Both the position numbers and the translations under genes were made by a program. Shown piece by piece: positions 2,033 to 37,161 of a stretch of 64,000 nt of DNA. A model generated the notes under the pieces. That model was given only the letters and a program-made list of their open reading frames with translations. It made no database searches and was not told where the DNA came from. This DNA comes from Kosakonia radicincitans DSM 16656 (GTDB taxonomy: Bacteria; Pseudomonadota; Gammaproteobacteria; Enterobacterales; Enterobacteriaceae), in NCBI RefSeq assembly GCF_000280495.2, contig NZ_CP018016.1:4340001-4404000 (forward strand), in the 5' to 3' direction. Numbering within the stretch: position 1 is the stretch's first letter; every line of letters starts with the position of its first letter.

Positions 2033-2051
2033 GTTTGCTGCACCATACTGG

Positions 2052-2078
2052 AAAAACCGGGGAAACCCGGTTTTTTTT
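2052..2078 (+). terminator. Rho-independent terminator of the cyo operon
   Basis: A 10-bp perfect stem (AAAAACCGGG/CCCGGTTTTT) with a GAAA tetraloop is followed by an uninterrupted T run, 20 nt after the cyoE stop. Confidence 0.9.
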
Positions 2079-2227
2079 CGTCTGGAGTAAGCCCTTTGCT
2101 GGCCCTGTTACGGTGAAGCCAATAACAGGATGAAATCCAAGGTTATGTAATATTTGTTAAATAACCGCATGTTTACCCTACCCTGCCTCCGCACTACACT
2201 ATGTCCGGTTTTTAAATTGAGGTGGTA

Positions 2228-17727: not shown

Positions 17728-18483
17728 TCACGCAGCCAGCATTGCCCGGAACAGCCAGGCAACGGCTGCAATAATGATCGCCGGGCCGAAGGGAAAAGCT
17801 TCCGAACGGTTGGCTTTAATAATGAAATAGCCATATACCAGACCTAAAAGCGACGCGATAAGCATGATGTGAAATAGCGCTTCGCAGCCCTGCCAGGCAC
17901 CGATACCGGCAAACAGCTTCATATCGCCAACGCCGATCCCGGCTTGTCCGCAGCGCCACAGAAACAGGCGATTCAGCGCCCAGGGAATGAGAAAGCCCAC
18001 CGCAGCACCCGCAACAATACCGCTCATTGCTGCACTGTCAGGCTGTTTCGACCATGCCGATAACATCGCCAGCCCCAGAAAGGGCAACGTCAATTTATCG
18101 GGCAGCAACAGGTAGTCATAATCAATAAACAACATGACGACCAACAAGAACAGCAGCGACAAATCGAGCAAGCTGGCCGCATTGACGCCCTGCCAGCCGA
18201 TCAGCAGTGCAAACAGCAGCGCCATGGTGAATTCAACGCCAGGATAGCGCCAGCTAATGGGTTGACGACAGCACTGGCTGCGCCCCTTCAACCAGAGCCA
18301 GCCAAGCAGAGGAATGTTGTAACGCATCCTGATACGCTGCCGGCAATGCGGGCAAAACGAAGGCGGCCAGCTCAGATTGATCGCCTCCCCCAGCATCATG
18401 CGCGGCAAGCGATAAATGACGACGTTGGCAAAGCTGCCGAGGATCGCACCTAATAACGCAAAGAGCAGCGTATTACCGATCAT
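17728..18483 (-). CDS. gspO: Prepilin peptidase (GspO/PilD family, type A24)
   Basis: A 251-residue inner-membrane aspartic protease and N-methylase that processes prepilin leaders. The N-terminal zinc-binding tetra-Cys set is visible (CPHC about 44-47 and CC about 71-72). The two catalytic Asp are in FIDYDYLLLPDKL and in the GVGDMKLF (GxGD) motif. About seven hydrophobic helices. It overlaps the upstream pseudopilin gene by 11 nt and is the last gene of the secretion cluster, so it probably serves the four prepilin-like proteins encoded there. Confidence 0.93.
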   Translation of the reverse strand: MIGNTLLFALLGAILGSFANVVIYRLPRMMLGEAINLSWPPSFCPHCRQRIRMRYNIPLLGWLWLKGRSQCCRQPISWRYPGVEFTMALLFALLIGWQGVNAASLLDLSLLFLLVVMLFIDYDYLLLPDKLTLPFLGLAMLSAWSKQPDSAAMSGIVAGAAVGFLIPWALNRLFLWRCGQAGIGVGDMKLFAGIGAWQGCEALFHIMLIASLLGLVYGYFIIKANRSEAFPFGPAIIIAAVAWLFRAMLAA

Positions 18484-19009
18484 CTTGCTTCACCGTTATG
18501 CCATGCGTTGTGCCGTCGGCAGAGCGACAAGCAGACGGGAGCGGCGCGTTTGCCACATCATCCACTTTAAAAATCCACTTCGGATAGGTGTCTGCTTTTT
18601 TAAAATTCACCAGCGCTTTCGGAAATGCCGCCGTGCGAAGCGGCCGCCCTTTCCCTTTACTGAAGACGCCCACCCAGCGGCCTTGCTTGTCGTAGCTCAT
18701 CCCCCACTGCCGCGAGCCGGTCAACGGATCGGTAAACCAGCGGCGCAGGTGATAAACCACTTTTTTACCGCGAGGATCGCGCAGCAGATCGTCAAAACTC
18801 AGCGGGAGACAGCCATTCCCCGCTTTCTGATACTGCTGAATGGCATTACGGATCTGCACGCCGCGGAAAAATAGCTCCTCTTCCTGCTGCTGCCGATAAA
18901 CCGCCTGCCGGTAACTGCTCTCTTTCAGCAGTGCCAGCGAGAGCATTGTCAGCATCAGTAACACCCACAGATAGGTGAATCCCCCCTGCCGCTGGCTACT
19001 CCTCATCAT
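18473..19009 (-). CDS. Atypical pseudopilin lacking Glu5
   Basis: About 178 residues from the ATG at 19009 (an upstream ATG at 19048 would add 13 residues and overlap the previous gene more). The leader MMRSSQRQGG precedes FTYLWVLLMLTMLSLALL, a prepilin-type hydrophobic helix, but residue 5 of the mature form is Trp instead of the usual Glu. Lack of Glu5 is typical of tip pseudopilins such as GspK, so a tip role is inferred. The body shares with the three neighbouring pilins a short TDPLTGSRQWGM stretch like the GspG DPWG motif. The exact family is not recognised. Confidence 0.75.
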   Translation of the reverse strand: MMRSSQRQGGFTYLWVLLMLTMLSLALLKESSYRQAVYRQQQEEELFFRGVQIRNAIQQYQKAGNGCLPLSFDDLLRDPRGKKVVYHLRRWFTDPLTGSRQWGMSYDKQGRWVGVFSKGKGRPLRTAAFPKALVNFKKADTYPKWIFKVDDVANAPLPSACRSADGTTHGITVKQDDR

Positions 19010-19370
19010 CTGACGGGCTCTTTTCTTCCAGAGAGGGAGAGGTGACATCCGTTATCTGGCCGTCATCATCGCGTTTTACGTCCCAGTTATCGCGGGTATT
19101 GGCAACAGGATCCATCGGAATTTCAAACAGATAACCATTGTTCACCAGATCTTCCAGCTCTTCCGGGCCGAGCAGGCGATCGTGACGATACGCCGCAATT
19201 GCCGAGCGCAGCGCATTACGGTTGTGTTTTAGCACCACGACTTTCGCGTATTCGGTCTGGCCGAAAAAACGCGGTGCCACCAGCGTCATTAAGGTGGCGA
19301 TGATCGCCATAACAACCAGTAACTCGATGAGCGTAAAACCTTTTTCACCATTGCGCATAGGGTATTCCAT
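18996..19370 (-). CDS. GspG-like pseudopilin
   Basis: 124 residues (120 if the ATG at 19358 is used). A short leader ending EKG precedes FTLIELLVVMAIIATLMTLV, a canonical class III prepilin signal with Glu5. The globular part keeps a GspG-like EIPMDPVANTRDNW stretch. The C-terminus is a strongly acidic tail (EEKSPSDDEE). It overlaps its neighbours on both sides, which points to coupled translation. Processing by the adjacent GspO is expected. Confidence 0.82.
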   Translation of the reverse strand: MEYPMRNGEKGFTLIELLVVMAIIATLMTLVAPRFFGQTEYAKVVVLKHNRNALRSAIAAYRHDRLLGPEELEDLVNNGYLFEIPMDPVANTRDNWDVKRDDDGQITDVTSPSLEEKSPSDDEE

Positions 19371-19818
19371 TCAATCCTGGCTGGCTGCTGGTGGAACTGA
19401 CATCCCAGACATCCTTACCACCTGTCGTCTCTCCCGGCGCCTGGGTGGATGCGCGCACCCGCCAGGTTTCGGTGTTCTTCCTGCCGTCGCAGTCACAAAA
19501 GGGATCGCGCGGGATCCGGCGCAACAGATAGATTTTTTCTTTGTTCGGGGACTTTTTATTCACCACGCCATCAACCAACAGATCGAGCCAAGCAGGCCAG
19601 TTGGTCATATCGGCATCTTTCTCAATGATCCCCTCCTCAACCAACTGCCCGTAACGATCGATTGCGCTGCGAATGTCACGCAGCGCGACGCGCAACTCCT
19701 CTTCATTACGCTGCTGCTCCTGTCGCTGATAGATGGGAATGGCGGCACTGGCAAGCGTCGCCAGCAGCGCCAGAGAGATCATCATCTCGATCAGCGTAAA
19801 GCCACGCTGAAACTTCAC
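19345..19818 (-). CDS. GspG-like pseudopilin with GTG start
   Basis: 157 residues. The leader is only VKFQRG, followed by FTLIEMMISLALLATLA with Glu5. The middle has LLRRIPRDPFCDCDG, again the position of the GspG DP motif but with a Cys pair. The start is the GTG whose last two bases form part of the secretin stop (GTGA), so the genes are coupled. It belongs to a run of three pseudopilins between secretin and prepilin peptidase. Confidence 0.82.
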   Translation of the reverse strand: MKFQRGFTLIEMMISLALLATLASAAIPIYQRQEQQRNEEELRVALRDIRSAIDRYGQLVEEGIIEKDADMTNWPAWLDLLVDGVVNKKSPNKEKIYLLRRIPRDPFCDCDGRKNTETWRVRASTQAPGETTGGKDVWDVSSTSSQPGLNGIPYAQW

Positions 19819-21686
19819 CGCGCATCCCCCTCGCTTTTCGCCAGCGTCGGCGCAGGCAGTTTACCGGCTGGCGGGAAGTCCGCTGGCGGCATCAGTGGCG
19901 GTGGGGTAAAGGTCTCTTTTTTATCATTCGCTTGTTGGGCGGAAGGCAGATAACCGCTCTCTCCCTGCGACTCTTCGCTGCCCATCTCAATGGTATTGAT
20001 ATGGGTTCCCGGCAGATCGATGTTACGTTCAATGGTTGGCGTAATCAGCAACACCACTTCCGTACGCTCTGTGCTGTTATCGTTGCTGCCAAAAAGTTTA
20101 CCCAGCAGCGGAAGATCGGATAATCCGGGCAAACCGGTCAGCTCATCGCTGTCGCTCTCTTTGATCAGACCAGCCAGCACTTGTGTTTCGCCATTCTGGC
20201 TGCTCAACACGGTCGTGGCTTCACGGTTGTTGGTGCGGTAATAAGCCACGCCGTCTTTCGAATGCTCAGCGCCGCCAATAGTGCTGAGATTGAATTTCAC
20301 ATCCATGGAGATGGTGCTATCAACGCTGATATCCGGTGTCACTTCGAGTTTCAGCCCGACATCCTGATACTCAACCTGCTCCTGAGAAAAACTCTCTGAA
20401 ATACTGCTTGTCAGTACCGGAATACGCTCGCCAATATCGATCACCGCTTTTTTATTGTTCTTCACACGGATTCGCGGATTGGCGAGAACCCGCGCATGAG
20501 AACGCACTTTTTGCAGATTGGCGGAAATCCCCTGGCTGGCGCCAAGATTGATAAACATATTGCCCTGGTTAAACCCATTCAGCGGAATATTGGTGCTCTC
20601 TTCGCTGGCGTTAAAGCCAACGCCCACCTGTCCTGGGAAGTTGATGCCAAGAATCTCTTCGTCTTTGGCGTTAATCTCCAACACTTCCACACCGAGCGTT
20701 ACTTCCGCTTCCGGGCGATCGAGGGTCATCAGCAATTGTTCAGCCTTCTCTACGCTTTCGCGCGGCCCACGAAACGTGATCGAGTTGGTCCGCTCATCAA
20801 CATGAACATCACGGATCTTAATCAGGTTACGCAGCGCAACATTGAGATCCTTCGCTTTGGCATAGCCCAGGAACACCGTTTTCACTAAGGTGTCGCGATA
20901 GGTTTTCTCTTTTTGCGCCGTCGCGGGATAAATCAGCAAGGTATTGCTGTTGAGTATCTTTTTACGTAACTGATTAGAGAGCAGCAGCAAATTCAGGGCG
21001 TTTTCTGCCGTTGTATCGTTAGCAATCAGGCTGGCAGTGGCTGTTTCCGGAACGTCTTTATCGTAAATAATATTAATACCGGTGATCTTGCTAATCGAAG
21101 AGAAAATATCCATCAACTTATGTTTCTGGAAATTAAAACTCACCGGCTTACGCAGCTCACGATTCATTTTTGTTTCTGGTTGATTCTGCAATGCAATTTC
21201 ACGCATCAGATGATCGCGCATTTCAGCAGCCTGCGGCCAGTTAGGATCTTCCTCAAGAACCTGCTGAATTTTTTGCAGCGCCAGTTCCGGCTCGGTCTTA
21301 TACTGAACAATAGCCTGTTGATATAATTTATCGAGAGCACGAGAGCCTTCGATCTTTTTTAGCCCCTGTTGCGCACTAAAATTTCCTGGCTGGTATGACA
21401 ATGCTGAACGCCAGAATTTCGTCGCAGAGAGGTAATCATTCCGCGCAACAGCCTGGTTAGCGGCTAACAGATAATAATTAACCAATTGTGTAACCATTGA
21501 CTGACGTTCAGTACGCAGTTCAATATCACCCGGTTTGGTCTTAATCGAGTTATCAATCTGCTGTATTTCACTGACCAGGGTGTCAATATTTCCAATATTC
21601 ACTTTTTCAGGCTCTGGAAGCCTGTCGCTTGCGCAGCCTGTTAACAGAATTAACGAGCAGGCAACGCTGAGGATATTTTTTTTCAT
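19815..21686 (-). CDS. gspD: Outer-membrane secretin lipoprotein (GspD/MshL/PilQ superfamily) with helical N-terminal domain
   Basis: 623 residues. The signal peptide MKKNILSVACSLILLTG ends at a lipobox Cys. Residues about 25-175 are helical and TPR-like (YYLLAANQAVARNDYLSA...). An STN/N0-like domain follows (KPVSFNFQKHKLMDIFSSIS), then N1-type repeats, then the secretin core with VEVLEINAKDEEILG, VLANPRIRVKNNKKA and the closing VLAGLIKESD...LPLLGKLFG. It forms the outer-membrane gate. ATG 21686 was chosen over GTG 21695 because it starts the signal peptide cleanly. No pilotin gene is present; the lipobox may make it self-targeting (inference). Canonical GspD lacks a helical N-terminus like this one. 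Confidence 0.88.
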   Translation of the reverse strand: MKKNILSVACSLILLTGCASDRLPEPEKVNIGNIDTLVSEIQQIDNSIKTKPGDIELRTERQSMVTQLVNYYLLAANQAVARNDYLSATKFWRSALSYQPGNFSAQQGLKKIEGSRALDKLYQQAIVQYKTEPELALQKIQQVLEEDPNWPQAAEMRDHLMREIALQNQPETKMNRELRKPVSFNFQKHKLMDIFSSISKITGINIIYDKDVPETATASLIANDTTAENALNLLLLSNQLRKKILNSNTLLIYPATAQKEKTYRDTLVKTVFLGYAKAKDLNVALRNLIKIRDVHVDERTNSITFRGPRESVEKAEQLLMTLDRPEAEVTLGVEVLEINAKDEEILGINFPGQVGVGFNASEESTNIPLNGFNQGNMFINLGASQGISANLQKVRSHARVLANPRIRVKNNKKAVIDIGERIPVLTSSISESFSQEQVEYQDVGLKLEVTPDISVDSTISMDVKFNLSTIGGAEHSKDGVAYYRTNNREATTVLSSQNGETQVLAGLIKESDSDELTGLPGLSDLPLLGKLFGSNDNSTERTEVVLLITPTIERNIDLPGTHINTIEMGSEESQGESGYLPSAQQANDKKETFTPPPLMPPADFPPAGKLPAPTLAKSEGDAR

Positions 21687-21697
21687 CTGCTTCACGG

Positions 21698-22192
21698 TTA
21701 TTTAATTTTCAGAGAATTAAGATCGATACGTTTTTCAACCTGGCCGGACATCGCTTTAATTGTCACGTGGTCAGGTTCTATTGCCTGCACTTTCCAGTCC
21801 GGGGTGAGTAAATCGCCGGGTTGAATAAAGTCTTTCTTTCCGCAATTGCTACAAAGCAACCAGTTTTGCATGCCATCCGTAATAATGATGATTTTCTGGT
21901 TATCGCTTATCCAGAGTCCTGCCAACTGAAAAGGAAAAGCAACTTCCTGTACCACCGGAGTCGTAGAGGGTTTCTCTTTTACGGGTAGGGTGTACACAGG
22001 AAATAAATCCGCCAGTTCATCACTTTCATTGCGCACAACGGGCTTTTTACTCTCCTTCGCTTTTTGCGCGACGGCGGGTTTCGTCTGCGTGCCGGATAAT
22101 GCCCCGGCTGAATCATCACCAAAGAATTGCGCCCATACCACCAGACCCAATGTGAGTGCCAGGCATACTTTCAGATATAACGGGATTTTCAT
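21698..22192 (-). CDS. PilP/GspC-like inner-membrane linker protein
   Basis: 164 residues: an N-terminal membrane anchor (YLKVCLALTLGLVVWAQFF), a Lys/Pro-rich linker, then a beta-rich C-terminal domain (about 85-164) with the pattern FQLAGLWISDNQKIIIITDG ... GDLLTPDWKVQAIEPDHVTI. That is the layout of the HR domain of GspC and of PilP/MshK, which contact the secretin N0 domain. A Cys pair (CSNC) is present. It overlaps the previous gene by ATGA and ends 11 nt before the secretin ATG. There is no PDZ domain, so it is closer to PilP than GspC. Confidence 0.75.
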   Translation of the reverse strand: MKIPLYLKVCLALTLGLVVWAQFFGDDSAGALSGTQTKPAVAQKAKESKKPVVRNESDELADLFPVYTLPVKEKPSTTPVVQEVAFPFQLAGLWISDNQKIIIITDGMQNWLLCSNCGKKDFIQPGDLLTPDWKVQAIEPDHVTIKAMSGQVEKRIDLNSLKIK

Positions 22193-22722
22193 GATGGCTC
22201 CAGACGTGATGTCAGCGTAAGCGTCAGCTGCAGGTTGATTTGCAGGCGCTCACTATCCGGGTTCGCACGCGTAACCGATACCCTGTCGACATTAAAGATC
22301 AGGCTGCTTCTCATCTTGCTCAGCGAACGTGTTAATCCGGCCCACTTCCCCTGCAGCGGAATATCGAGCGAAAGCTTGCGTTGGCGGTTTTTTTCTTCTT
22401 TGCTGAACTGATAATGACTGCCATCAACCTGTAAATGATTCTGCTGGAGAATATCAAACAGGGTTTTAACTTGCTGATATTCGGTTTCGTTCAGCGCGCT
22501 TTGCAATTGCCCTTTATCGTTAGCTAATACCGGCAGCGGTTTCTTTAATTGTTGCTGTAAAAGCGTGTTGTCATCACGTAACCGGGTAATATCGGGCAGC
22601 ATATAAATATGCTGATAGCACAATAAAGCGACAGGCACTAACAGCGCAAGTAGCGTTTTTTTCCCCGTTTTCTCCAGAAGGCAAGAGAGCCTCCAATGAA
22701 TATTAGATAAGGAAAGTCTCAT
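22189..22722 (-). CDS. PilO/GspM-like inner-membrane platform protein
   Basis: 177 residues from the ATG at 22722; the in-frame TTG five codons upstream is less likely. Short cytosolic N-terminus, one membrane helix (LLALLVPVALLCYQHIYML), a coiled-coil stretch (LRDDNTLLQQQL), then a ferredoxin-like periplasmic domain with LDIPLQGKWAGLTRSLSKM, the pattern seen in PilO/MshJ/GspM. It lies between the PilN-like and PilP-like genes, which supports the assignment. Divergent, so no gene symbol is given. Confidence 0.72.
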   Translation of the reverse strand: MRLSLSNIHWRLSCLLEKTGKKTLLALLVPVALLCYQHIYMLPDITRLRDDNTLLQQQLKKPLPVLANDKGQLQSALNETEYQQVKTLFDILQQNHLQVDGSHYQFSKEEKNRQRKLSLDIPLQGKWAGLTRSLSKMRSSLIFNVDRVSVTRANPDSERLQINLQLTLTLTSRLEPS

Positions 22723-22726
22723 ATGA

Positions 22727-23239
22727 TTAACCTGCAAAAATGATCATCAGAGTCGAATTCACGGCCCATTTATCGGTAGCGTTCTTTGCTGGAGTATGAT
22801 TTTTTAACTCTACCCGGGCAGGAATTTGCTCAAGTTGCGCGCTAAAATCCATCAGTGCCGATAACGATGTCGCACTGACATCCAGTGTGACGATTTTCTT
22901 ATTTGGGTTAGCATCCAGAGAAACAATCGCAATATCAGAAGTGAGTAACTGCGCAACAGGATTGAGCATCGAAATAATAGAAACCGATGCTTTTTCATTT
23001 GGTAGACTTTGTTGTGCTTTGACTTTTAGCGCCCGGATAATCTCATTTTGTCTGTTGACTGCCGCAGTTATATGCTGATTTTGTTGAGCAAGAACCTGAT
23101 GTTCCTGATATTGCTCAAACATCGTTACACATAAATACAGCGTCAGGATCAGCGCAATAATAATAACAGGACACGCATAAACGGAACGTGAATAGTTACA
23201 AAGGAACGGCATTCCTTTTAGACGGAGTTCAAAAGACAT
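22727..23239 (-). CDS. PilN-like inner-membrane platform protein
   Basis: 170 residues from the ATG at 23239. N-terminal segment, one membrane helix (CPVIIIALILTLYLCVTMF), a coiled coil (EQYQEHQVLAQQNQHITAA), then a ferredoxin-like domain with IVTLDVSATSLSALMDFSAQ. This is the PilN (or GspL C-terminal half) layout. The gene starts after a 152-nt gap downstream of the PilM-like gene, whereas the following genes are tightly packed. Confidence 0.72.
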   Translation of the reverse strand: MSFELRLKGMPFLCNYSRSVYACPVIIIALILTLYLCVTMFEQYQEHQVLAQQNQHITAAVNRQNEIIRALKVKAQQSLPNEKASVSIISMLNPVAQLLTSDIAIVSLDANPNKKIVTLDVSATSLSALMDFSAQLEQIPARVELKNHTPAKNATDKWAVNSTLMIIFAG

Positions 23240-23391
23240 AATTCTTCCCATGAATGACAGTCTTGATAAATGACGTTCTGAATACAGACCATCAAAATAA
23301 AACTAACGGCATACTACGGATATAGTACTAGTCAGAAAAATGGTCTGCGGAGCCAAAAGAGATGTTTTCAGTTCACTTTATTATCAGCGTA
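23240..23391 (-). other. Non-coding gap inside the secretion operon
   Basis: 152 nt separate the PilM-like stop from the PilN-like start, in an operon whose other genes overlap or nearly touch. All three minus-strand frames close within about 25 nt of the stop, so it does not continue the PilM-like protein. It is AT-rich and could hold an internal promoter or processing site; I see no clear terminator. Confidence 0.6.
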
Positions 23392-24066
23392 CTAACAGGC
23401 ATTAAGGAAATGACGCGGCGCATTATTATCAAGCCCCATTAATCGCGCCACCAGCGCCAGTTGCCGCTGTGCATCTCCATCACTGTCATTATTCAGCCGC
23501 CAGACCTGATGCCACTCGCCCTGCTGGCGCGCTGCGTAAATGCTGGAATGCGCGCCGCGCAGACAAAACAGCGCCTCCTGGGGCAGCTGCCGCAACCAGG
23601 GATGCAGTTGCACCTGAAATTCAATCGCAATGCCCTCCACGCGTAGTTTTCGCTGTTTGCCGATGCGCAGCAATATTTGCCACAGGCGATCGTCAATGGT
23701 GGCGGCGAGTGCCGTTGATGCGTAGTTGACCGAGATAAAATCGGTCTTTAGCGACTGCTCTTGCCCGCCAGGCCACTGCTTTATCGCCTGGGACGCCGCG
23801 TAACCGCGAAAATCTTCCGGGTTGGTGATCCCCTCCTGCCACGGCACCGTAAAGTGGTGAACCCGGCTACTTTCCAGCCAGAATCCCAGCGTGTCGCGCC
23901 ACGGCACACGACCAATATGTGGCGCAATCAGGCCATCCACAGCCTCTTCCAGCGTGGCATCATCGGTGATTTCGCACTCGCCGATGCGGTTGCTCGCGCA
24001 GCGTAGCACCAGATGATGTTCATAGATTTCGCACAAAAATTTACGCGGGCGCAGTGATAACACGGT
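23392..24066 (-). CDS. Short PilM/GspL-N-like protein
   Basis: 224 residues, soluble, no membrane helix. Its place between GspE and the PilN-like gene and its strand pattern (FLCEIYEHHLVLRCAS, TLGFWLESSRVHHFTVPW, GYAASQAIKQWPG) suggest the actin-like PilM/GspL cytoplasmic domain, which docks the ATPase. It is much shorter than typical PilM (about 350) and no ATP-binding motif is obvious. The GTG at 24066 was chosen because AGGAG lies 7 nt upstream; an ATG at 24096 would lie deeper inside gspE without such a site. Assignment rests partly on context. Confidence 0.62.
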   Translation of the reverse strand, partial: TVLSLRPRKFLCEIYEHHLVLRCASNRIGECEITDDATLEEAVDGLIAPHIGRVPWRDTLGFWLESSRVHHFTVPWQEGITNPEDFRGYAASQAIKQWPGGQEQSLKTDFISVNYASTALAATIDDRLWQILLRIGKQRKLRVEGIAIEFQVQLHPWLRQLPQEALFCLRGAHSSIYAARQQGEWHQVWRLNNDSDGDAQRQLALVARLMGLDNNAPRHFLNAC

Positions 24067-25681
24067 TAATCTCCTGAAATGTGGTTTTCCCTTCAAGAAC
24101 GGCGCGAATGGCTACGTTATGCAGAGGGACGAACCCTTGCGCTAATGCAATTTCTCGCAGTTGCCGTACCGGCATCCGCGACTGCAATGCTTCTTTCATC
24201 ACATCGTTAAAAGGCAGTATCTCCGCCAGCGCCAGCCGTCCGCGATAACCGCTCTGCCGACAGGACGAACAGCCGCGCCCCTTGCGCCACAACGGTTGCA
24301 GATGGTTGAGATCGCTCTGCTGCCACTGCGCCAGATCCTGTTCAGTCGGCGCAACCTCCTCCTGACAATCCGGGCACACGCTACGCACCAGCCGCTGGGC
24401 AAGTACACCCTGCAAGGCGGTCAGTAAGCTTTCTGTTTCCACATTCATATAGAGAAAACGTTCAAGCACACTAAACACATCGTTGGCATGCACCGTGGAT
24501 AACACCAGATGCCCGGTCAACGCCGCCTGTACGGCAATACCTGCGGTTTCGCTGTCACGAATTTCCCCGACCAGAATGGTGTCCGGATCGTGACGCAGAA
24601 TGGCGCGCAGGCCACGGGCAAAAGTCAGCCCTTTTTTGTCATTCACCGGGATCTGCAGAACGTCATTGAGCTGGTACTCAACCGGATCCTCAATGGTGAT
24701 GATTTTGCTCTCACCGTTATTCAGTTCGCTCAGCGCCGCATACAGCGTGGTGGATTTGCCGCTTCCCGTCGGGCCTGTCACCAGCACCATGCCATGCGGC
24801 CGGTTGGTCAATTGGCGGATTTCCCGCAGGGTATGATCGTCAAAGCCGAGAATTTCCAGGCTAAGCGTACTGCTGTGCGACTTATCCAGTACACGCAGAA
24901 CCGCATCTTCACCATGAATGCCGGGCACAATAGACACGCGAAAATCAACGGGGCGCTGGTGAATAATCGCTTTAAAACGCCCATCCTGCGGAACCCGCCG
25001 TTCAGAGATATCCATATTACTGAGCACTTTCAGACGTGAAATCACCTGTTCGGAATAGTGAATTCCCTGGCAATGGCGGATAGCGTGAATCACCCCATCG
25101 ACGCGGTATTTCACCGCAAGGCCATCGGGAACGGCCGAAAGGTGAATATCGCTGGCGCGGCTCTGCATCGCATCGTACAACGTGGCGTTGAGTAGCTTGA
25201 TAATAGGATTCGCTTCGTTGGCGATAATGGCGGGCGTGATCTCAAGGATCATCTCATCTTCCGCACCTTCATTGACCTGCTGTTCAAGCTGATCCATGGT
25301 GCGCTGCTGACCGGCCAGCGCCTGCAACTGCTCCTGAAGCCAGAGCGGAGGCGCAATAGCCAGCGTGACCGGCAAACGCTGCGCCCACTGGCGAAGATCC
25401 AGTGAAAAGGGATCGCTCAGCAACAGCCACTCCTGCTGCTGCCAGCGCACCGGTAGCACCTTCCATCCCACTACGTCGTTGAGCGAGACATGTTCAAAAT
25501 GGATCTCTGCCGCATGCAGCTCTTCTGCTGTCAGCGCTTTCAGCCCCAGTTCCGCCGCCATCCATGTTAAAGCATCCGGCTGTTCCAGCAGAACCTGCTG
25601 CAACGTCTCTCCGCGCTGGGGTTCGCTGAGCGCCAGCAGACGATCGATTACGGTAGAAATCTCATTCGGCATTACATTCAT
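24041..25681 (-). CDS. gspE: Type II secretion/type IV filament assembly ATPase GspE
   Basis: 546 residues. The N-terminal MshEN/GspE-N-like domain (about 1-140) precedes the hexameric ATPase core. Walker A is GPTGSGKS (303-310), the Asp box is ITIEDPVEYQL, Walker B is DTILVGEIRDSETA, and the His box is GHLVLSTVHAND. A zinc tetra-Cys module follows (CPDC ... CSSC, about 433-480), as in GspE and PilB. It powers pseudopilus extension at the cytoplasmic face. Its ATG shares one base with the gspF stop. Confidence 0.95.
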   Translation of the reverse strand: MNVMPNEISTVIDRLLALSEPQRGETLQQVLLEQPDALTWMAAELGLKALTAEELHAAEIHFEHVSLNDVVGWKVLPVRWQQQEWLLLSDPFSLDLRQWAQRLPVTLAIAPPLWLQEQLQALAGQQRTMDQLEQQVNEGAEDEMILEITPAIIANEANPIIKLLNATLYDAMQSRASDIHLSAVPDGLAVKYRVDGVIHAIRHCQGIHYSEQVISRLKVLSNMDISERRVPQDGRFKAIIHQRPVDFRVSIVPGIHGEDAVLRVLDKSHSSTLSLEILGFDDHTLREIRQLTNRPHGMVLVTGPTGSGKSTTLYAALSELNNGESKIITIEDPVEYQLNDVLQIPVNDKKGLTFARGLRAILRHDPDTILVGEIRDSETAGIAVQAALTGHLVLSTVHANDVFSVLERFLYMNVETESLLTALQGVLAQRLVRSVCPDCQEEVAPTEQDLAQWQQSDLNHLQPLWRKGRGCSSCRQSGYRGRLALAEILPFNDVMKEALQSRMPVRQLREIALAQGFVPLHNVAIRAVLEGKTTFQEINRVITAPA

Positions 25682-26859
25682 CAGGACATGCTCCCTGCCA
25701 TTTCGAAAATCGGCATATAGAGTAAAAACACCACTAACCCGACAATCCCGCCGACAATCATCATCAATACGGGTTCAAAGATGCGGGTAAATGAATCAAT
25801 GGCACGTTCCAGCGCCTCATCATAAAAAGCCGCAATACGCTCGCACATTCCCGCCAGCTCGCCGCTGCGCTCGCCCACCTGGATCAGGCGCATGGCAACC
25901 GGCGTTGTCAGTTGCTGGCTTTCAAGAGATTCCGATAACGTATTGCCCGCCAGCACGTGTTCCAGCACTCTGTTGAGGCGCTGATGGTGGCTGGCTGGCA
26001 GAACGGCTTTTGCCAGGCGCAGCGCATGCGGCACGGGGACACCGCCCTCAATCAACAGACCTAACGTGCGGTAAAAACGCACCAGAATGCCCAGAAATTG
26101 TTGCTGCCGGAGCTGAGGAATTTTCAGCACCAGGCTGAACAAGGTTTGTTTCACCACTGGCTGTCGGAAAAGCAAAAAGAAAAACGCCAGACAGGCGGCA
26201 AGCGCCAGCAACAGTTCCTGCCCCGAGTGCTTGACCAGATTTCCCCACCACAAAATAAGCCGGGCGCTGTCAGTCAGCGTGTTCATCCCTTCAAATACTT
26301 GTGAAAAGCTGGGGACGATAAACCCCAAAAGAAAACAGATAATTAATCCGCCTACCGACAGCACAATCACCGGGTAGGTAAGCGTTCCGCGAATGCGTTT
26401 ACGCAGTTGCTCAATCCGTTGTTCGTAATAGTGATAACGCTTCAGCGCGTTGGCCAGATGCCCGGTTTGCTCCGATGAAGCCACCGTATTCACCAGTAAA
26501 GGCGGGAAGATTTCCGGTTGTGCGCTCATCGCCTGCGAAAGTTGGCAACCGGCATAGAGTTTTTCCAGCAACCTTTCGAGCATTTCAAGAACCTGCTCAT
26601 CGGTAGAGCAGGCGCGCAGCGTTTCGATGGCTTCAGTGACCACCAGGCCCGCTTCAAGCAGCGCCACCAGTTCCTGAAGAAATAAACCAAGGGCGAAGCG
26701 TTTAATCTGCTGTTGTTTTTGCGGAATAACCCGCACAACGGCATGACCCGCTTGCTGTAATTGATGACGGGCAGCAATCGCGCTTTCTGCCTGAGTACGC
26801 ATTTTTTTACGCTTGCCATTATCTAAATAAGTGACTTCCCAGCTATGCGTTTTGCTCAT
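25681..26859 (-). CDS. gspF: Type II secretion/type IV filament platform protein GspF
   Basis: 392 residues with two repeated T2SSF domains (about 60-180 and 265-385). Each contains the family pattern of helices around LVALLEAGLVVTEAIETL and LGLLIEGGVPVPHALRLA, with three membrane helices ending VLMMIVGGIVGLVVFLLYMP. It forms the inner-membrane core to which GspE and the pilins bind. ATG 26859 was used; an in-frame TTG three codons earlier is weaker. It overlaps the end of the transglycosylase frame region closely and is followed by gspE. Confidence 0.94.
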   Translation of the reverse strand: MSKTHSWEVTYLDNGKRKKMRTQAESAIAARHQLQQAGHAVVRVIPQKQQQIKRFALGLFLQELVALLEAGLVVTEAIETLRACSTDEQVLEMLERLLEKLYAGCQLSQAMSAQPEIFPPLLVNTVASSEQTGHLANALKRYHYYEQRIEQLRKRIRGTLTYPVIVLSVGGLIICFLLGFIVPSFSQVFEGMNTLTDSARLILWWGNLVKHSGQELLLALAACLAFFFLLFRQPVVKQTLFSLVLKIPQLRQQQFLGILVRFYRTLGLLIEGGVPVPHALRLAKAVLPASHHQRLNRVLEHVLAGNTLSESLESQQLTTPVAMRLIQVGERSGELAGMCERIAAFYDEALERAIDSFTRIFEPVLMMIVGGIVGLVVFLLYMPIFEMAGSMS

Positions 26860-26864
26860 AAAGC

Positions 26865-27314
26865 TCAATCCTTATGCTTATTTTTCAACCGCAGATAAAC
26901 GGGAGCAACTTTCTTTATGTAGCGCTTGCGCCACATTTTAGTTTTACTGTCACGGCCATTGCCGGCGTTATATGCGCCGACCGCTTCCCAGCTATAGCCA
27001 AATAAACGCATCTGTCCTGCTAAAATCCAGGCTCCCACCATAACGTTCTGGCAAGGATCATTCATTAATGCGTGTTGTGTAATGTTATATTTTTTTAATT
27101 GGCTGAAATGCTGACTATTAATCTGCATAAGACCAATATCCGTGGAGCCATTTTTATTTCCATTGATTGCCGATGGCAATAATCCTGACTCCACGATACC
27201 AATCGCTTGCAACAATTCAGGTTCGATACCATAACGTTCGCCAGCGCTACGCCAGCAATTTGCCATCGCTGGCTGCACGGAGAGCAGAACTAACACGATG
27301 AGCAGCCTGATCAT
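26865..27314 (-). CDS. Lytic transglycosylase (SLT/IagB-like)
   Basis: 149 residues with a signal peptide IRLLIVLVLLSVQPAMA before NCW. The SLT domain has the catalytic Glu in AIGIVESGLLPSAIN (Glu42), the GLMQIN motif and a closing WEAVGAYNAGNGRD stretch. Such small enzymes (IagB, PilT, VirB1 type) cut peptidoglycan locally to let trans-envelope machines through. It lies between gspG and gspF, a position not seen in classical gsp operons as I know them, so it probably helps this machine cross the wall. Confidence 0.9.
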   Translation of the reverse strand: MIRLLIVLVLLSVQPAMANCWRSAGERYGIEPELLQAIGIVESGLLPSAINGNKNGSTDIGLMQINSQHFSQLKKYNITQHALMNDPCQNVMVGAWILAGQMRLFGYSWEAVGAYNAGNGRDSKTKMWRKRYIKKVAPVYLRLKNKHKD

Positions 27315-27316
27315 AA

Positions 27317-27736
27317 TTAAAATCCGTAAGTGATATCCTTCCCGTTTTTATCTGCGGTGGAAATTTCAACTTCATAGACTTTTTGTTCTGCTCGCGCAGG
27401 GTTATGCCATTGGTATTCGTGGCCCCACGGATCTTGCGGAATTTGCTGCGCCAGATAAGGGCCATTCCAGTTGGTGGCATCCGACGGTTTTTCAACCAGA
27501 ACACTTAACCCTTGCTGCTCTGTCGGATAGCTTCCGGTATCCAGTCGGTACTGGATTAATGCATCTGCAAAGGAATGCATCTGACGCATTGCGGTTTTCT
27601 CTTTTGCCTGATCGACATTCGAAAAAAGTTTTGGCCCAACAAACCCGGCCAGCAACGCAATAATCATTAATACCACCAGCAGTTCAAGGAGCGTAAATCC
27701 CTGCTGAGCTTTAAACTTAACATCTATTTTTTTCAT
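27317..27736 (-). CDS. gspG: Major pseudopilin GspG
   Basis: 139 residues. The leader MKKIDVKFKAQQG is followed by FTLLELLVVLMIIALLAGFV with Glu5. The globular domain carries the canonical GspG features: YPTEQQGLSVLVEKP, NGPYLAQQIPQDPWGHEYQW (the calcium-site loop), and a C-terminal strand ending DITYGF. ATG 27736 with CAGG 5 nt upstream was preferred over GTG 27748. It is the first gene of the secretion cluster and is divergent from the LuxR-type regulator. Confidence 0.93.
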   Translation of the reverse strand: MKKIDVKFKAQQGFTLLELLVVLMIIALLAGFVGPKLFSNVDQAKEKTAMRQMHSFADALIQYRLDTGSYPTEQQGLSVLVEKPSDATNWNGPYLAQQIPQDPWGHEYQWHNPARAEQKVYEVEISTADKNGKDITYGF

Positions 27737-28011: not shown

Positions 28012-28695
28012 ATGTCAATTAATATATTAATTGCAGATGAACACACTATTATTCGTCGGGGGATGACCTCGATGATAAATTCATTAAAAACCAGCAATAT
28101 AAATACTGACAAACTAGACATCGATGTCGTTGGCGATACCAGTGAGCAAGCAGAATTACTTAACATTCTCGCCACACAAAAAGTCGATCTTCTTTTCCTT
28201 GGCTATGGACTTACCACGGTTAAAACCGGTAACCCGGTATCGGAATTAGATGGTATTGCGTTAGTTAAGTGGATCTCCAGCCGTTATCTCAAGACGAAAA
28301 TTATTGTCTTATCACCCTATAACAATACCAATCTTGTACGCATCGTTCTTGAAGCGGGCGCAAAAGGCTATATCAGCAGAAATACCAGCGAACGCACGTT
28401 GTGGCGCGCAATCACTAACGTAATGATGGATGAAGTTTATATTGAACGCGGTTTAATGGATTCGCTGTTCCGCCGCGAAGCCATTACCCCGCAGGAGCTG
28501 TCAACGCGCGAAAGTGAAGTCTTACGCTTATTATGCCGGGGGCTCTCTCTGACTACGATATCGACACGTATGAACATCAGTATCAAAACGGTGAGCGCAC
28601 ATAAGCTACGCGCGATGGGAAAACTGAATGTAAGAACAGACTGCCAGCTTTATTGTCTTTTATTCCAGACCCGGATGTTCGATATTGCGATGTAA
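28012..28695 (+). CDS. RcsB/LuxR-family regulator with degenerate receiver
   Basis: 227 residues. The N-terminal receiver (1-about 135) keeps the acidic pair (IADEHTIIR) but the phospho-acceptor position reads LLFLGYGL, with Gly64 where RcsB-type receivers have Asp, and the late conserved Lys is Arg (GAKGYISRN). The C-terminal LuxR HTH (about 160-225) is intact: LSTRESEVLRLLCRGLSLTTI and MNISIKTVSAHKLRAMGKL. It is therefore probably phosphorylation-independent or a heterodimer partner. It is divergent from gspG and followed by a good terminator. Confidence 0.88.
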   Translation: MSINILIADEHTIIRRGMTSMINSLKTSNINTDKLDIDVVGDTSEQAELLNILATQKVDLLFLGYGLTTVKTGNPVSELDGIALVKWISSRYLKTKIIVLSPYNNTNLVRIVLEAGAKGYISRNTSERTLWRAITNVMMDEVYIERGLMDSLFRREAITPQELSTRESEVLRLLCRGLSLTTISTRMNISIKTVSAHKLRAMGKLNVRTDCQLYCLLFQTRMFDIAM

Positions 28696-29063: not shown

Positions 29064-30020
29064 TTATTTACAGGCAGTGTGCGCAGAAGCAGAGCCAGGC
29101 TCACGCCATACGCCCCACTGGTTAGCGCTGGACGGCGCTTCACCGCGAGTCCACCAGCCGTTGACCCAGACTTTGCCCTGATAAGAAACTTTCTGGCAAG
29201 GTGCAGAGTAAACCGTGGTAGCGTTCCATGCTGCAACAGTATCATCGCCCGGAGCCGGAGTATCGCCCTCGTCGCCCGGAGCCGGAGTATCACCTTCATC
29301 GCCCGGTGCCGGAGTATCGCCCTCGTCGCCCGGTGCCGGAGTATCACCTTCATCGCCCGGTGCCGGAGTATCACCCTCATCGCCCGGTGCCGGGTTTTCT
29401 TCTTCATCGCCCGGTGCCGGGGCCGGGTTGTTGCCGCCGAAATCAACGTCAATCACGTTGTAGAAAGTAGCGCCGGTATCAGAGACGTCCCAGGCAGCCA
29501 TAATTACCTGATAACCGTCACGTTCCGGTACGTCACATTCGTGCTTCGGATTGGTATTCGCAATCGCGCCGTTACCTGTAACCTCGCAGAAAGGCTGGGC
29601 TTCAAAAGAGTTGCGAGTCAGCGGCTGATTCGGGTTCCAGTTTGCTTTAGTGATGTAGTATTTCCAGGAGCCAGTTTTATGCGCAGCGGTAAATTTCCAG
29701 GTAAAGGAGTTCTTGCCCGCTTTCATTGGATGCTTAGTCCAGCGAGAAGCGCTCTGCTGATCCAGATTAACCATTGATGCCACGCCAGCACTCGCCAGGC
29801 GTCCATCAGCCGGACCCGCGTTTAAAGCAGGGAAGCCATCCGGCCCTTCAACGCTCTGCGGTTCATACTGCGGGCCTGCGCCACAATCTTTGTTCTGGTT
29901 TCCCTGAGCAGCAGTACATAACGCTGCGCGGGAAGCGGGTTCGGTAACATAACCATGTGCTAAAGCGCCACCGGCCATGCAAAGGGTTGTGACTGCGAGA
30001 AAAACTTTTGATAATTTCAT
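29064..30020 (-). CDS. AA10 lytic polysaccharide monooxygenase (CBP21-like) with CBM5/12
   Basis: 318 residues, secreted. The 21-residue signal peptide ends AGGALA before HGYVTEP, so mature His1 (residue 22) and His114 (FTAAHKTGSWKY) form the copper histidine brace. The AA10 domain runs to about 200. A linker of six (T/N)PAPGDEGD-type 9-residue repeats follows, then a CBM5/12 chitin-binding domain (AWNATTVYSAPCQK to the end) with the Trp cluster NGWWTRGEAP. AA10 enzymes oxidatively cut crystalline chitin. ATG 30020 with GGAG 7 nt upstream was preferred over an ATG four codons earlier. Likely cargo of the adjacent secretion machine (inference). Confidence 0.94.
   Translation of the reverse strand: MKLSKVFLAVTTLCMAGGALAHGYVTEPASRAALCTAAQGNQNKDCGAGPQYEPQSVEGPDGFPALNAGPADGRLASAGVASMVNLDQQSASRWTKHPMKAGKNSFTWKFTAAHKTGSWKYYITKANWNPNQPLTRNSFEAQPFCEVTGNGAIANTNPKHECDVPERDGYQVIMAAWDVSDTGATFYNVIDVDFGGNNPAPAPGDEEENPAPGDEGDTPAPGDEGDTPAPGDEGDTPAPGDEGDTPAPGDEGDTPAPGDDTVAAWNATTVYSAPCQKVSYQGKVWVNGWWTRGEAPSSANQWGVWREPGSASAHTACK
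29239..29430. repeat. 27-bp coding tandem repeat in the LPMO linker
   Basis: About six to seven copies of a 27-bp unit (core GGTGCCGGAGTATCACC on this strand) encode (T/N)PAPGDEGD. Copies differ at a few third positions (for example GGAGCC vs GGTGCC). Copy number could vary by slippage without a frameshift. Confidence 0.92.
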
Positions 30021-30162
30021 TAATAACTCCATCCATGTGTAGTATTTACTGCCCGGTTAAAGTAATGAATTATCGTTGTAATAATAATATCAACATTCCA
30101 TTAATTTATAAGATCCCCTCCGCTGCCACGGGAATATTCTGCCATGAATATGTAATAACAAA

Positions 30163-30279: not shown

Positions 30280-31974
30280 TTATTTACACTGGGTGTGCAT
30301 GGTTGCAGAACCCTCTGGACGCCATGCGCCCCACGGGTTAGCGTCGGACGGCGCTTCGCCCTGAACATACCAGCCGTTCATCCAGACTTTGCCCTGATAA
30401 GTTACTTTCTGGCAAGGCTGAGCATAGATGGTAGAAGCGTTCCATGCTGTGACGGCACCGTTGCCTGGGTTATCGCCAGGCTCTTCACCCGGGTTATCGC
30501 CTGGGTTTTCGCCCGGTTCTTCACCCGGCTCTTCGCCTGGTTCTTCACCTGGTTCTTCAGGCTCTTCTGCAACATCGTCAGCCAGGTGCTTGATGGAGAA
30601 CGCCAGCGGCAGAGAATCATCTTTGCCATCATTAACCGTCAGTTTAAAGCCCAGAGTGGCATCCACATCGGTGCTGTTCAGCGTGAAAGTCGCTTTCTGC
30701 TGACTCGCATTGTTCAGCGTAACCTGCGGCCCGGAAACCTGGGTCCAGGTGTAAGTCAGTGTGTCGCCATCCGCATCATAAGAGCTGGAAGCATCCAGCG
30801 TTACCGTCGCTGCACCCTGCACTTCTTTCTGATAAGTCGCACGAGCAACCGGAACGGTGTTGCCGGTTTCCGGCACGCCGCCGCTGGCGGCATTCTTCAT
30901 ATCGTTGATGTAATCGATCTGGTCAGCAAAGCTCAGGCCGGTATCGTTAGAGCCCATCGCCCAGACGAATACACCGCCGTAACCATTTGCAGCCTGCCAT
31001 GCGGCACGCGCGATGTTGTTTTCGCGGGTTTCAGCATAGCGACCTTCCGGGCCCCACTGGGTGGTCAGGGTGTTACCGAGGATGATTTTCTTCGCATCGC
31101 CAACCGCTTTCGCGTAGTTAGCCATTGCAACGTCATACTTGAAGCGCGGACCCGCATCGTATGCCATTACATTGTAGAAATCAAACAGATCGCGACTGTT
31201 TTGCAGCAGATCCAGTACTTCACCATGGTGAGTGGAACGATCGTTTTCAACAAAGGAGCAACCGTCGGTCACAGAAGAATCAGAGCACTCAAGCGGGTCA
31301 GCACCCACGTGGTAAGTCGTCAGGCTGATCAGCTTGCCGCTGTTCGGGCCCAGTAGTTCACGTACGCGTTTAACCAGTTTGATCAGGTTGTTGTTCTCTT
31401 CCGGACTCAGACGAGCGGTTTTCTCGAAGTCAAAGTCGATACCGTCGATCTGCACGGTGCCCGCCTTCTGGTAGTTCGCCAGGTTACAGGAACCATCCCA
31501 GTTAGCGCTGGAGCATGGACCCTGAACCTGATCCGCCTGCAGGCCTTTTTGATAAACCGGGAAATCCTTACGCAGCAGTTTTACCAGACCCTGAGCAATA
31601 TTTTCACGGCTGGTTTCATTCGCCAGATGCGCCCAAATACTTTCGTATGTTGCGCCACCGAATGCCACCATCATTTTTTTGTAGGGTGCAGCCAGTTTAA
31701 CTTGAGTCCAGGAAGTATAAGCTGGCGGTAACCAGTAATCGTTATAAGCAACATCACCAACGATATTATCAGAAGTATAAATTGCACCGTCCTGATCCCA
31801 GCCACCGAACGAAAGCAAATAAGTATCAACTTCTGCATTCATCATTTGAGTAGCTGCATCCTGAGGTAAACCCCAGGAAGTCAGATAACTCATCATATGG
31901 TTATTTGATTCAGCCAGTGCAGACTGAGAGAGTAACGCCGTAGTAATTAATGCAGCCAATGATAACTTTTTCAA
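30280..31974 (-). CDS. Family 18 chitinase with PKD-like domain and CBM5/12
   Basis: 564 residues, secreted. Signal peptide KKLSLAALITTALLSQSALA before ESNN. The GH18 barrel (about 25-375) has the catalytic DGIDFDFE motif with acid Glu184, and VMAYDAGP and GGVFVWAMGSND near the end. A PKD-like beta-sandwich follows (about 380-475: VTLDASSSYDADGDTLTYTW), then a Pro/Glu linker of EEPG repeats and a C-terminal CBM5/12 (AWNASTIYAQPCQK). The start codon is TTG, fixed by a perfect AGGAGG 6 nt upstream and by the signal peptide. Likely cargo of the adjacent secretion system, as ChiA is for the E. coli T2SS. Confidence 0.95.
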   Translation of the reverse strand: MKKLSLAALITTALLSQSALAESNNHMMSYLTSWGLPQDAATQMMNAEVDTYLLSFGGWDQDGAIYTSDNIVGDVAYNDYWLPPAYTSWTQVKLAAPYKKMMVAFGGATYESIWAHLANETSRENIAQGLVKLLRKDFPVYQKGLQADQVQGPCSSANWDGSCNLANYQKAGTVQIDGIDFDFEKTARLSPEENNNLIKLVKRVRELLGPNSGKLISLTTYHVGADPLECSDSSVTDGCSFVENDRSTHHGEVLDLLQNSRDLFDFYNVMAYDAGPRFKYDVAMANYAKAVGDAKKIILGNTLTTQWGPEGRYAETRENNIARAAWQAANGYGGVFVWAMGSNDTGLSFADQIDYINDMKNAASGGVPETGNTVPVARATYQKEVQGAATVTLDASSSYDADGDTLTYTWTQVSGPQVTLNNASQQKATFTLNSTDVDATLGFKLTVNDGKDDSLPLAFSIKHLADDVAEEPEEPGEEPGEEPGEEPGENPGDNPGEEPGDNPGNGAVTAWNASTIYAQPCQKVTYQGKVWMNGWYVQGEAPSDANPWGAWRPEGSATMHTQCK

Positions 31975-34611: not shown

Positions 34612-35320
34612 TCGCGGTAACGCCCAACGCTCTCTGCAAAAATTGATAACTTTCATGCACCGCGATACCAAAGCGATGGCGCATCTTCGTGGCTTGCGCT
34701 TCATTTACCCGCTGTTCGTGGAGCAGTGCAGGCAATCTTTCCATGGTGATGCAACGGCGCCGGGCATAGCGCATGCCCAACAGGTGAAAAGAGGATTTCA
34801 TGCGGTGTGCCAAATCAGCTATCTGTATCAGCGATCCATCATGTTGCAGGTTTTCCAGTTGGCGGAGATCGCTGCTTAACGTTCGCAGCAGCGTCGGGAT
34901 CATCGCCTCTATAACTGGCTGTTGGTGGCCGGCCAGCGCACAAAGTTCGTGCAGATCCGGCTCTGGCCTGAGTGGAATAGCCCTGACCTGCTCATCAGAA
35001 AACATCAGCGGCAGCAGTCGATCAAAACCTTTGAGCCGCAGCCGATTCTCCTGCTGCTCCCGCGACCAATCACCACAGCCCAGCAGCAGCGGCGTTGTCG
35101 CCACATCGCCCGCCAGTTCTGCGGCAAGAATGTTTTCCAGGGCGTCACAACCCGCCTTTTCCTGCTCGTCGAGCTCGAAAACTATGGCGTGGTACCGGTG
35201 TTGCTTAAGCAGGCCGGGCGCGTCGTTGAAGCCAGCAATACGCTTTTGCGGGTGCGCATGCTGTAATCTGTACTGTTGCTCGCAACGGTGAGTAATAACA
35301 AGAAGTGGCAATCCCTGCAT
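34604..35320 (-). CDS. Stand-alone HPt phosphotransfer protein with degenerate receiver-like N-terminus
   Basis: 238 residues. The C-terminal half (about 125-235) is an HPt helical bundle with IADLAHRMKSSFHLLG (phospho-accepting His172). The N-terminal 115 residues look like a receiver without the acidic pair (LLVITHRCE) and with YHAIVFELDE, Glu49 at the expected phospho-Asp strand end; this is inference from pattern. It lies 11 nt after the regulator gene and overlaps the kinase gene. It would pass phosphate from the kinase receiver (Asp768) to the regulator (Asp58). Confidence 0.82.
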   Translation of the reverse strand: MQGLPLLVITHRCEQQYRLQHAHPQKRIAGFNDAPGLLKQHRYHAIVFELDEQEKAGCDALENILAAELAGDVATTPLLLGCGDWSREQQENRLRLKGFDRLLPLMFSDEQVRAIPLRPEPDLHELCALAGHQQPVIEAMIPTLLRTLSSDLRQLENLQHDGSLIQIADLAHRMKSSFHLLGMRYARRRCITMERLPALLHEQRVNEAQATKMRHRFGIAVHESYQFLQRALGVTANE

Positions 35321-35331
35321 AACGACCTGAC

Positions 35332-35964
35332 TTAACTGATTAATCCGAGCTGCTGTACGGACTGATAAAGCTCATACTCCGACGTGGCGCCTAATTTACG
35401 CATCGCGCTCTTCTTTTGTGCGCTAACGGTCTGCTTGGTACGGCTCAGCCTGACGCTGATTTCATTCACCGTCATTCCGCGCAGCAACAGACGCAGAACT
35501 TCATTCTCTTTTGGTGTTAGGTGAACCGCTGTTTTCGTCGTTGTTCGCTCTTTGATGCTACCGATCCGGCCTGCCGCCATGGTGGACGTCAGACTTTTCA
35601 TCGTATGCAACAATTCGGTAGAGAGGCTGGCTTTATTCAGCACGCGGTGTACGCCAAGACGCATTAGCGAACGCTGGAGACCAGGATTGCTCACCATGGT
35701 AACGACGATAATTAATAGCTCAGGCCAGCGTCTTTTCAGCAGTTGTATCAACGCCAGTCCGTCATTGTACCGGGTACCCGGCATGCTGAAGTCGGTGATT
35801 AAAATATCCGCAGGTTGCTGCTCAAGCTTCACCACTAGCTCGTCGGTAGTCATGGCTTCATCAACAATGTGGTACTGACGGGAAAGTGGGTTAAGCAGTG
35901 CCCGTAATCCCATCAGATAAATAGGATGATCGTCAGCAATCAGCACCTTTTTTGGCTTCAGCAC
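35332..35964 (-). CDS. EvgA/BvgA-type NarL-family response regulator
   Basis: 210 residues. Receiver with acidic pair LIADDHPIYLMG, phospho-acceptor ILITDFSMPG (Asp58), a Thr in VVTMVSN and a Lys in RVLNKASL. LuxR HTH at about 147-205: LTPKENEVLRLLLRGMTVNEI and LSRTKQTVSAQKKSAMRKL. This receiver is intact, unlike the regulator at 28012. First gene of the regulator-HPt-kinase string, which sits directly upstream of the chitinase, so control of chitinase, LPMO and secretion genes is likely (inference). Confidence 0.93.
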   Translation of the reverse strand: MLKPKKVLIADDHPIYLMGLRALLNPLSRQYHIVDEAMTTDELVVKLEQQPADILITDFSMPGTRYNDGLALIQLLKRRWPELLIIVVTMVSNPGLQRSLMRLGVHRVLNKASLSTELLHTMKSLTSTMAAGRIGSIKERTTTKTAVHLTPKENEVLRLLLRGMTVNEISVRLSRTKQTVSAQKKSAMRKLGATSEYELYQSVQQLGLIS

Positions 35965-37151: not shown

Positions 37152-37161
37152 AACGCACTCC

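Follow-up and report, generated by a model that had tools for sequence, protein, structure and literature searches.

A secretion-type filament machine of Kosakonia radicincitans outside the sampled type II secretion clade and its conserved linkage to predicted chitin-degrading enzymes

We analyzed a 64,000-bp stretch (hereafter the window) of the largest contig of the 6.12-Mb genome of Kosakonia radicincitans DSM 16656 (NZ_CP018016.1, positions 4,340,001 to 4,404,000), in which 13 tightly packed genes on the minus strand, running from 27736 to 17728, encode a machine related to type II secretion systems (T2SS) and type IV pili. Our results indicate that this machine is an intact and conserved secretion-type filament system lying outside the sampled T2SS clade and accompanied by strong candidate cargo, secretion itself being predicted. 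We consider it likely that the system is dedicated to the secretion of chitin-degrading exoenzymes, namely a GH18 chitinase and a lytic polysaccharide monooxygenase (LPMO) encoded beside it. This interpretation is supported by a major pseudopilin GspG that passes the T2SS cut-off, a third minor pseudopilin that lacks Glu5 and the folds of the PilM- and PilP-like proteins, as well as by the signal peptides of both enzymes, the C-terminal module that they have in common, their conserved linkage to the machine and the lack of a GspD match elsewhere in the genome. The original prediction made on this DNA described the machine and did not mention the chitinase, the LPMO or the regulators linked to it.

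Organization and components of the machine

All 13 genes of the filament machine originally proposed at 17728..27736 were recovered at their place and on their strand (Table 1). Their ends had been described as overlapping or near-touching, which is accurate for neighbors that overlap or sit 2 bases apart and inaccurate for the PilM-like and PilN-like genes, which are separated by a 140-base gap. The gspG gene starts with an ATG at 27736, and the frame has another possible start, a GTG 12 bases further upstream. Profile matches are far beyond chance for GspG (E 4e-39), GspE (1e-140), GspF (2.7e-70) and the secretin (7.2e-50). Among GspG, GspE, GspD and GspF, only GspG passes its curated T2SS cut-off (133.7 versus 88.85 bits), GspE reaching 469.7 bits (cut-off 630.25), GspD 170.1 (351.35) and GspF 237.6 (424). 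Scores likewise stay under the cut-offs of type IVa pili (T4aP) for PilQ (157.1 versus 284.35 bits) and PilB (441.4 versus 675.65), and the secretin scores 107.8 bits with the MshL model of mannose-sensitive hemagglutinin (MSH) systems, for which the cut-off is 250.2. The 13 genes include neither a retraction ATPase nor, according to Pfam, any AAA gene besides gspE, hence no match to mshM.

The initial claim that GspC, GspL, GspM and GspH-K are missing needs correction, because counterparts of GspL, GspM and GspC are recognizable through fold or weak profile matches and three minor pseudopilins are present. The four platform parts believed to be absent are instead remodelled, being split, shortened or below curated cut-offs. 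The GspL equivalent is divided over two genes (23392-24063 and 22727-23251) with no single-chain GspL, and the model of the PilM-like protein matches GspL/PilM folds. The AlphaFold2 model of the PilP-like protein has a helix at residues 5-24 and a beta domain at 89-157 (mean pLDDT 70.2); its best fold matches are the homology region (HR) of GspC (3oss) and PilP, none below a Foldseek E of 0.001. No lipobox could be read in its sequence. A CxxC motif is found in this protein in 18/18 Enterobacterales loci and is missing from the six or seven betaproteobacterial rows aligned; this CxxC hairpin may be a disulfide or a metal site. The PilMNOP-like nature of the platform, as first suggested, is upheld: a platform split as in type IV pili is combined with a T2SS-type major pseudopilin in a compact machine.

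The secretin carries an STN domain and one Secretin_N repeat, with GspD_N0 detected at 0.07 only, as compared to three Secretin_N repeats and the GspD N0 domain in the E. coli K-12 GspD-alpha control. Its lipobox pattern recurs in 17 of the 18 Enterobacterales loci, the exception being L032, whose stop-to-stop frame begins further upstream. Lipidated secretins can get to the outer membrane without a pilotin, and this secretin would need none because it has its own lipid anchor. Among 15 secretin homologues, TPR families were found in up to eight and cohesin in four. The cohesin domains are C-terminal, and an extra tail is apparent from the alignment row or annotation at loci L012, L013, L020 and L021; it is conceivable from these domains that tailed secretins dock cargo in a cohesin-like manner. 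In all 18 Enterobacterales loci, Glu5 is present in GspG and in minor pseudopilins 1 and 2, while residue 5 of minor pseudopilin 3 is not Glu. The T2SS pseudopilin without Glu5 is GspK.

In every one of the 18 loci examined from Enterobacterales, open frames match the 12 genes from gspG to minor pseudopilin 3; the fetched stretch includes the peptidase gene in 15 of them. Elsewhere in the K. radicincitans genome, no GspD was detected at E 1e-60, and the other GspE-like matches comprise one putative HofB, one PilT and one unnamed filament ATPase. This type IV filament ATPase, at 1336-3105 of locus L003, scores well under every curated cut-off; the filament ATPase is predicted to belong to a second unclassified filament system.

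Table 1. Features of the machine and of the adjoining chitin-related island (window coordinates).
Feature	Coordinates	Strand	Evidence
GspG major pseudopilin, 139 aa	27317..27736	-	TIGR01710 133.7 bits, cut-off 88.85; mature start FTLLE
Lytic transglycosylase (SLT family, IagB-like)	26865..27314	-	Pfam SLT 9.9e-28; IagB model 172.7 bits, below cut-off 208
GspF/PilC platform protein	25681..26868	-	Two T2SSF stretches; GspF model 237.6 bits, below cut-off 424
GspE/PilB assembly ATPase	24041..25681	-	T2SSE 2.1e-123; GspE model 469.7 bits, below cut-off 630.25
PilM / GspL cytoplasmic domain counterpart, 223 aa	23392..24063	-	Actin-like fold
PilN / GspL periplasmic domain counterpart, 174 aa	22727..23251	-	GspL_C 1.1e-4, under cut-off; PilN in 3/11 homologues
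PilO / GspM counterpart, 182 aa	22189..22737	-	T2SSM_b 0.0031, under cut-off; 7/14 homologues match at 0.01
PilP / GspC-HR counterpart, 164 aa	21698..22192	-	Predicted N-terminal helix; conserved CxxC
Lipoprotein secretin	19815..21695	-	Lipobox LTGC, N-terminal region (TPR-like in homologues), STN, one Secretin_N, secretin domain
Minor pseudopilin 1	19345..19818	-	N_methyl 3.1e-9; Glu5 present
Minor pseudopilin 2	18996..19370	-	N_methyl 2.9e-9; Glu5 present
Minor pseudopilin 3	18473..19048	-	GspK-like: lacks Glu5; no Pfam match
Prepilin peptidase (GspO/PilD)	17728..18483	-	A24_N_bact 6.2e-30; Peptidase_A24 2.4e-18
LuxR-type response regulator, divergent from gspG	28012..28695	+	GerE and Response_reg; window and 6/6 machine-bearing Kosakonia stretches
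AA10 LPMO with C-terminal CBM5/12-like module, likely substrate	29064..30032	-	LPMO_10 3.5e-47; CBM_5_12 3.5e-4, under cut-off
GH18 chitinase with PKD and C-terminal module, likely substrate	30280..31974	-	Glyco_hydro_18 5.6e-15
EvgS-like hybrid histidine kinase	32104..34704	-	SBP_bac_3 sensor
Hpt-domain protein	34604..35320	-	Hpt 3.8e-6
LuxR-type response regulator	35332..35964	-	Beside the machine in 7/7 Kosakonia

Phylogenetic position

Together with relatives that are mostly betaproteobacterial, the machine makes up a separate clade, which falls outside the T2SS clade as sampled. In the latter, E. coli K-12 (alpha) is the sole T2SS included by name, Pul and beta systems not being in by name. 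In the GspE tree (72 rows), the machine group (31 rows) has a support of 100/100, as do the MSH group (8 rows) and the two groups into which the T2SS rows fall (15 and 3 rows), with 98/98 for PilB (14 rows). In the secretin tree (70 rows), the machine group (30 rows), MSH (12 rows) and T4aP (7 rows) are all supported at 100/100 and T2SS (21 rows) at 99/97. A concatenated tree of 44 rows and 1407 columns recovered the machine group (16 rows, 100/100), T2SS (13 rows, 96/96) and MSH (7 rows, 100/100). The proposed phylogeny of GspE and the secretin thus bears out a grouping of both proteins outside the sampled T2SS clade. The suggested separation from the Gsp/Pul and E. coli types holds to that extent; approximately unbiased tests do not reject the machine group as sister to T2SS (p 0.411 for GspE and 0.511 for the concatenation).

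Kinship to MSH, also anticipated, is weakly favored. The best GspE and concatenated trees join the two groups with a support of only 89/83 (not starred) and 92/81, respectively, and the closest neighbor of the machine group in the secretin tree is supported at 51/0. For an acquisition from betaproteobacteria, the trees speak neither way: the enteric rows form one clade (100/100 in the GspE and secretin trees) beside, not visibly inside, the betaproteobacterial rows, so that the direction of any such transfer cannot be read from the trees.

Distribution and relatives

Searches at E 1e-60, with the K. radicincitans genome included in each count, located the machine secretin in 6 of 246 genomes of the family (at seven places), in 7 of 15 of the genus and in 8 of 398 of the phylum. 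In a scan of named genomes, at least 577 of 597 pattern matches were confirmed, and 80 loci were kept among the matches listed: 72, mostly Betaproteobacteria by title, and eight Enterobacterales (Izhakiella, Pantoea, two Winslowiella, Serratia, Rouxiella, Enterobacter and Kosakonia). The nearest named secretin among the matches listed belongs to Kosakonia sacchari SP1 (99%), and the nearest named PilM-like protein to Kosakonia radicincitans (97%). Enteric secretins align with that of the window at 52-64% identity, and public names for the protein vary between GspD, PilQ precursor and "secretin N-terminal domain". One genome (G032) holds two divergent copies of the machine (L015 and L018), whose secretins are 65% and 54% identical to that of the window. 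A putative TonB-dependent receptor of about 650 amino acid residues, belonging to a five-locus cluster, is encoded beside several enteric machines (L014, L016, L019 and L031).

Annotated plasmids or megaplasmids of Burkholderia, Paraburkholderia, Eleftheria and Aquabacterium carry relatives with an identical or almost identical gene order. Of the Eleftheria copies, one has three genes between gspE and the secretin gene and the other lacks gspG ahead of gspF, and a relative on a Janthinobacterium plasmid or megaplasmid has a rearranged gene order. Giant RHS, FG-GAP or Ig proteins adjoin some relatives, and the protein cluster to which the annotated RHS proteins belong is represented in 15 of 93 loci.

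Linkage to chitin-degrading enzymes and regulators

The machine ends an island bounded by secF (36180-37256) and tsx (16790-17674), in which the minus-strand order of transcription is response regulator, Hpt protein, hybrid kinase, GH18 chitinase, AA10 LPMO and the 13-gene machine; the divergent plus-strand LuxR regulator precedes gspG. In 2-kb blocks, the GC content is 47-55% over the operon and 49-52% between 28 and 32 kb, most other blocks having 53-60%. Sec-type signal peptides can be read at the start of both enzymes, that of the LPMO ending in ..ALA|HGYV. Both end in a C-terminal module of 62 residues, 66% identical between the two, for which the genome yields no further match at E 0.01. 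Tandem repeats at 29242-29420 (LPMO) and 30463-30559 (GH18) correspond to acidic Pro/Gly-rich linkers preceding these modules.

The chitinase, LPMO, kinase and both LuxR regulators adjoin the machine in all seven machine-bearing Kosakonia (the window and six relatives). The Hpt gene is listed in five of the seven, by a gene listing that drops open reading frames overlapping a neighbor by more than 90 bases, as the Hpt gene of the window does with the kinase gene. The island is flanked by secF in all five machine-bearing stretches that reach that far. Of two Kosakonia without the machine, G193 has no island, a single gene separating tsx from secF, and the contig of G072 stops just past tsx. Across 18 Enterobacterales loci, a GH18 gene lies within the fetched stretch in 13, or 15 if genes at 12-21 kb are included. 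A survey of GH18 genes yielded 18 in eight genomes, 14 of them in six genomes with the machine and four in two without. In the six machine-bearing enterobacterial genomes, half of the GH18 genes (7 of 14) are located no more than about 21 kb from a machine (5 of 7 machines), for an expected number of 0.16, and four within 10 kb; the corresponding binomial probability (9e-11) assumes independence, which neighboring duplicates violate, and the 21-kb limit was set post hoc. These findings suggest that the GH18 chitinase and the LPMO are probably exported by the machine, and that the sensors and phosphorelay of the island probably control it. Such cargo is consistent with reports of T2SS that secrete chitinase or chitin-binding proteins, in B. 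rhizoxinica (PMC4166002) and in Yersinia (PMC3521999).

Several observations weigh against a dedicated exporter of chitin-degrading enzymes. Three of the 18 Enterobacterales machines have no GH18 gene nearby (one is on a contig ending just past the operon), two Kosakonia genomes that lack the machine have GH18 genes as well (three and one), and the seven Kosakonia islands are not independent because of common descent. None of 80 non-enteric loci joined the GH18 cluster in a loose blastp test, and some non-enteric machines adjoin RHS/FG-GAP proteins instead, so the family at large does not have chitin enzymes as its usual cargo. The PilT gene elsewhere in the genome leaves room for a retractable pilus.

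Proposed function and alternative interpretations

From the gene content, predicted folds, clade and conserved linkage, all of them shown by the analysis, we infer secretion itself, the identity of the substrates, their regulation and each mechanical step as follows. Sec would take the GH18 chitinase and the LPMO across the inner membrane, and both would fold once in the periplasm. GspE would drive GspF in building a short GspG pseudopilus primed by minor pseudopilins 1 to 3, which the prepilin peptidase would process. The split M-N-O platform would connect the periplasm with the ATPase, the PilP-like protein would dock onto the base of the secretin through its HR-like domain, the transglycosylase would open the peptidoglycan and the pseudopilus would push the substrates out through the secretin. 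The phosphorelay and the divergent LuxR regulator would probably turn on the enzymes and the machine together.

A broader proposal, which we put forward tentatively, is that T2SS, MSH and T4aP are joined by this clade as a fourth lineage of diderms, nearer to MSH, and that its protein secretion has an origin separate from that of the Gsp T2SS. The branch in Enterobacterales would have become a specialized exporter of chitinase and LPMO with a self-piloting secretin. Other branches would export RHS-like giants, which the cohesin-like tail present on some secretins might recruit.

The platform genes split as in PilMNOP, the single Secretin_N repeat, the position beside MSH in the best GspE and concatenated trees and the PilT gene of the genome would also suit a surface pilus of the MSH or type IV kind, adhering to chitin or fungi while the neighboring enzymes exit otherwise. 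We regard such a pilus as rather unlikely, however, given that GspG passes the T2SS pseudopilin cut-off, that no retraction ATPase is found among the 13 genes, that pseudopilin 3 lacks Glu5, that the secretin scores below the MshL cut-off and that the MSH grouping falls under the star threshold. An ordinary, merely fast-evolving Gsp-type T2SS is more doubtful still: the T2SS rows exclude the machine in the concatenated and secretin trees, GspE, GspD and GspF are under their curated cut-offs, GspL is split, one Secretin_N repeat replaces the three of E. coli GspD-alpha and the GspE tree, taken by itself, divides the T2SS rows into two groups. Such a system would nonetheless account for GspG, the peptidase, the homology of GspE, GspF and the secretin and the HR-like and actin-like folds, and a sister position of the machine to T2SS is not rejected. 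A decaying remnant would fit the patchy occurrence in the family and is very improbable in view of the open frames of the 12 core genes at every Enterobacterales locus and the identity retained by enteric secretins.

The machine is recurrent yet hardly studied. Being compact, it provides a natural way to test which parts of a T2SS are needed for secretion and which for pilus building, with clear candidate cargo in the plant-associated genus Kosakonia.

Comparison with known systems

The machine, called unorthodox in the original prediction, is not a new kind. One of two clusters of the "unorthodox T2SS" of R. solanacearum (Li et al. 2016, PMC5080846; PMC6428702) is described as having seven core genes, four hypothetical genes separating gspE from gspD. 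This fits GspG, F, E, the secretin and the three pseudopilins in our core order, which indicates that this kind has already been reported. That description gives no function for it. Some R. solanacearum strains are described as lacking one such cluster plus the adjoining rhsB, and the B. ambifaria copy of the machine, which has the same layout, likewise adjoins an RHS gene. Compared to the Ralstonia system, Kosakonia adds the transglycosylase, a linked peptidase, the chitinase and LPMO neighbors and the CxxC of the PilP-like protein; no named Ralstonia record is present among the matches listed for the relatives. We found no published account of the clade, its platform or its link to chitin in a search whose coverage left out most subscription papers.

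With the classical T2SS, represented by the E. coli K-12 gsp control, the machine has in common GspG, GspE/F, the secretin, the peptidase, GspL-, GspM- and GspC-like counterparts and chitin-related exoenzymes as likely cargo. It differs by its GspL in two parts, a short GspC-like protein with the HR-like domain alone, a lipidated secretin with one Secretin_N repeat and a separate clade; gspC is mandatory in the final T2SS model of Denise et al. 2019, whose account deals with T2SS, MSH and T4aP. Like MSH, it occupies a single locus and is a weakly supported neighbor in the GspE and concatenated trees, whereas the secretin stays under the MshL cut-off, no MshM-like AAA gene is found among the 13, a peptidase is present and the clade is separate (100/100); in the same account mshM is mandatory in the MSH model and MSH loci have no peptidase. 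With T4aP PilMNOPQ-PilBC it has in common separate PilM-, PilN-, PilO- and PilP-like proteins followed by the secretin, and it differs by scores under the PilQ and PilB cut-offs, a PilP-like protein without lipobox and a T2SS-type major pseudopilin.

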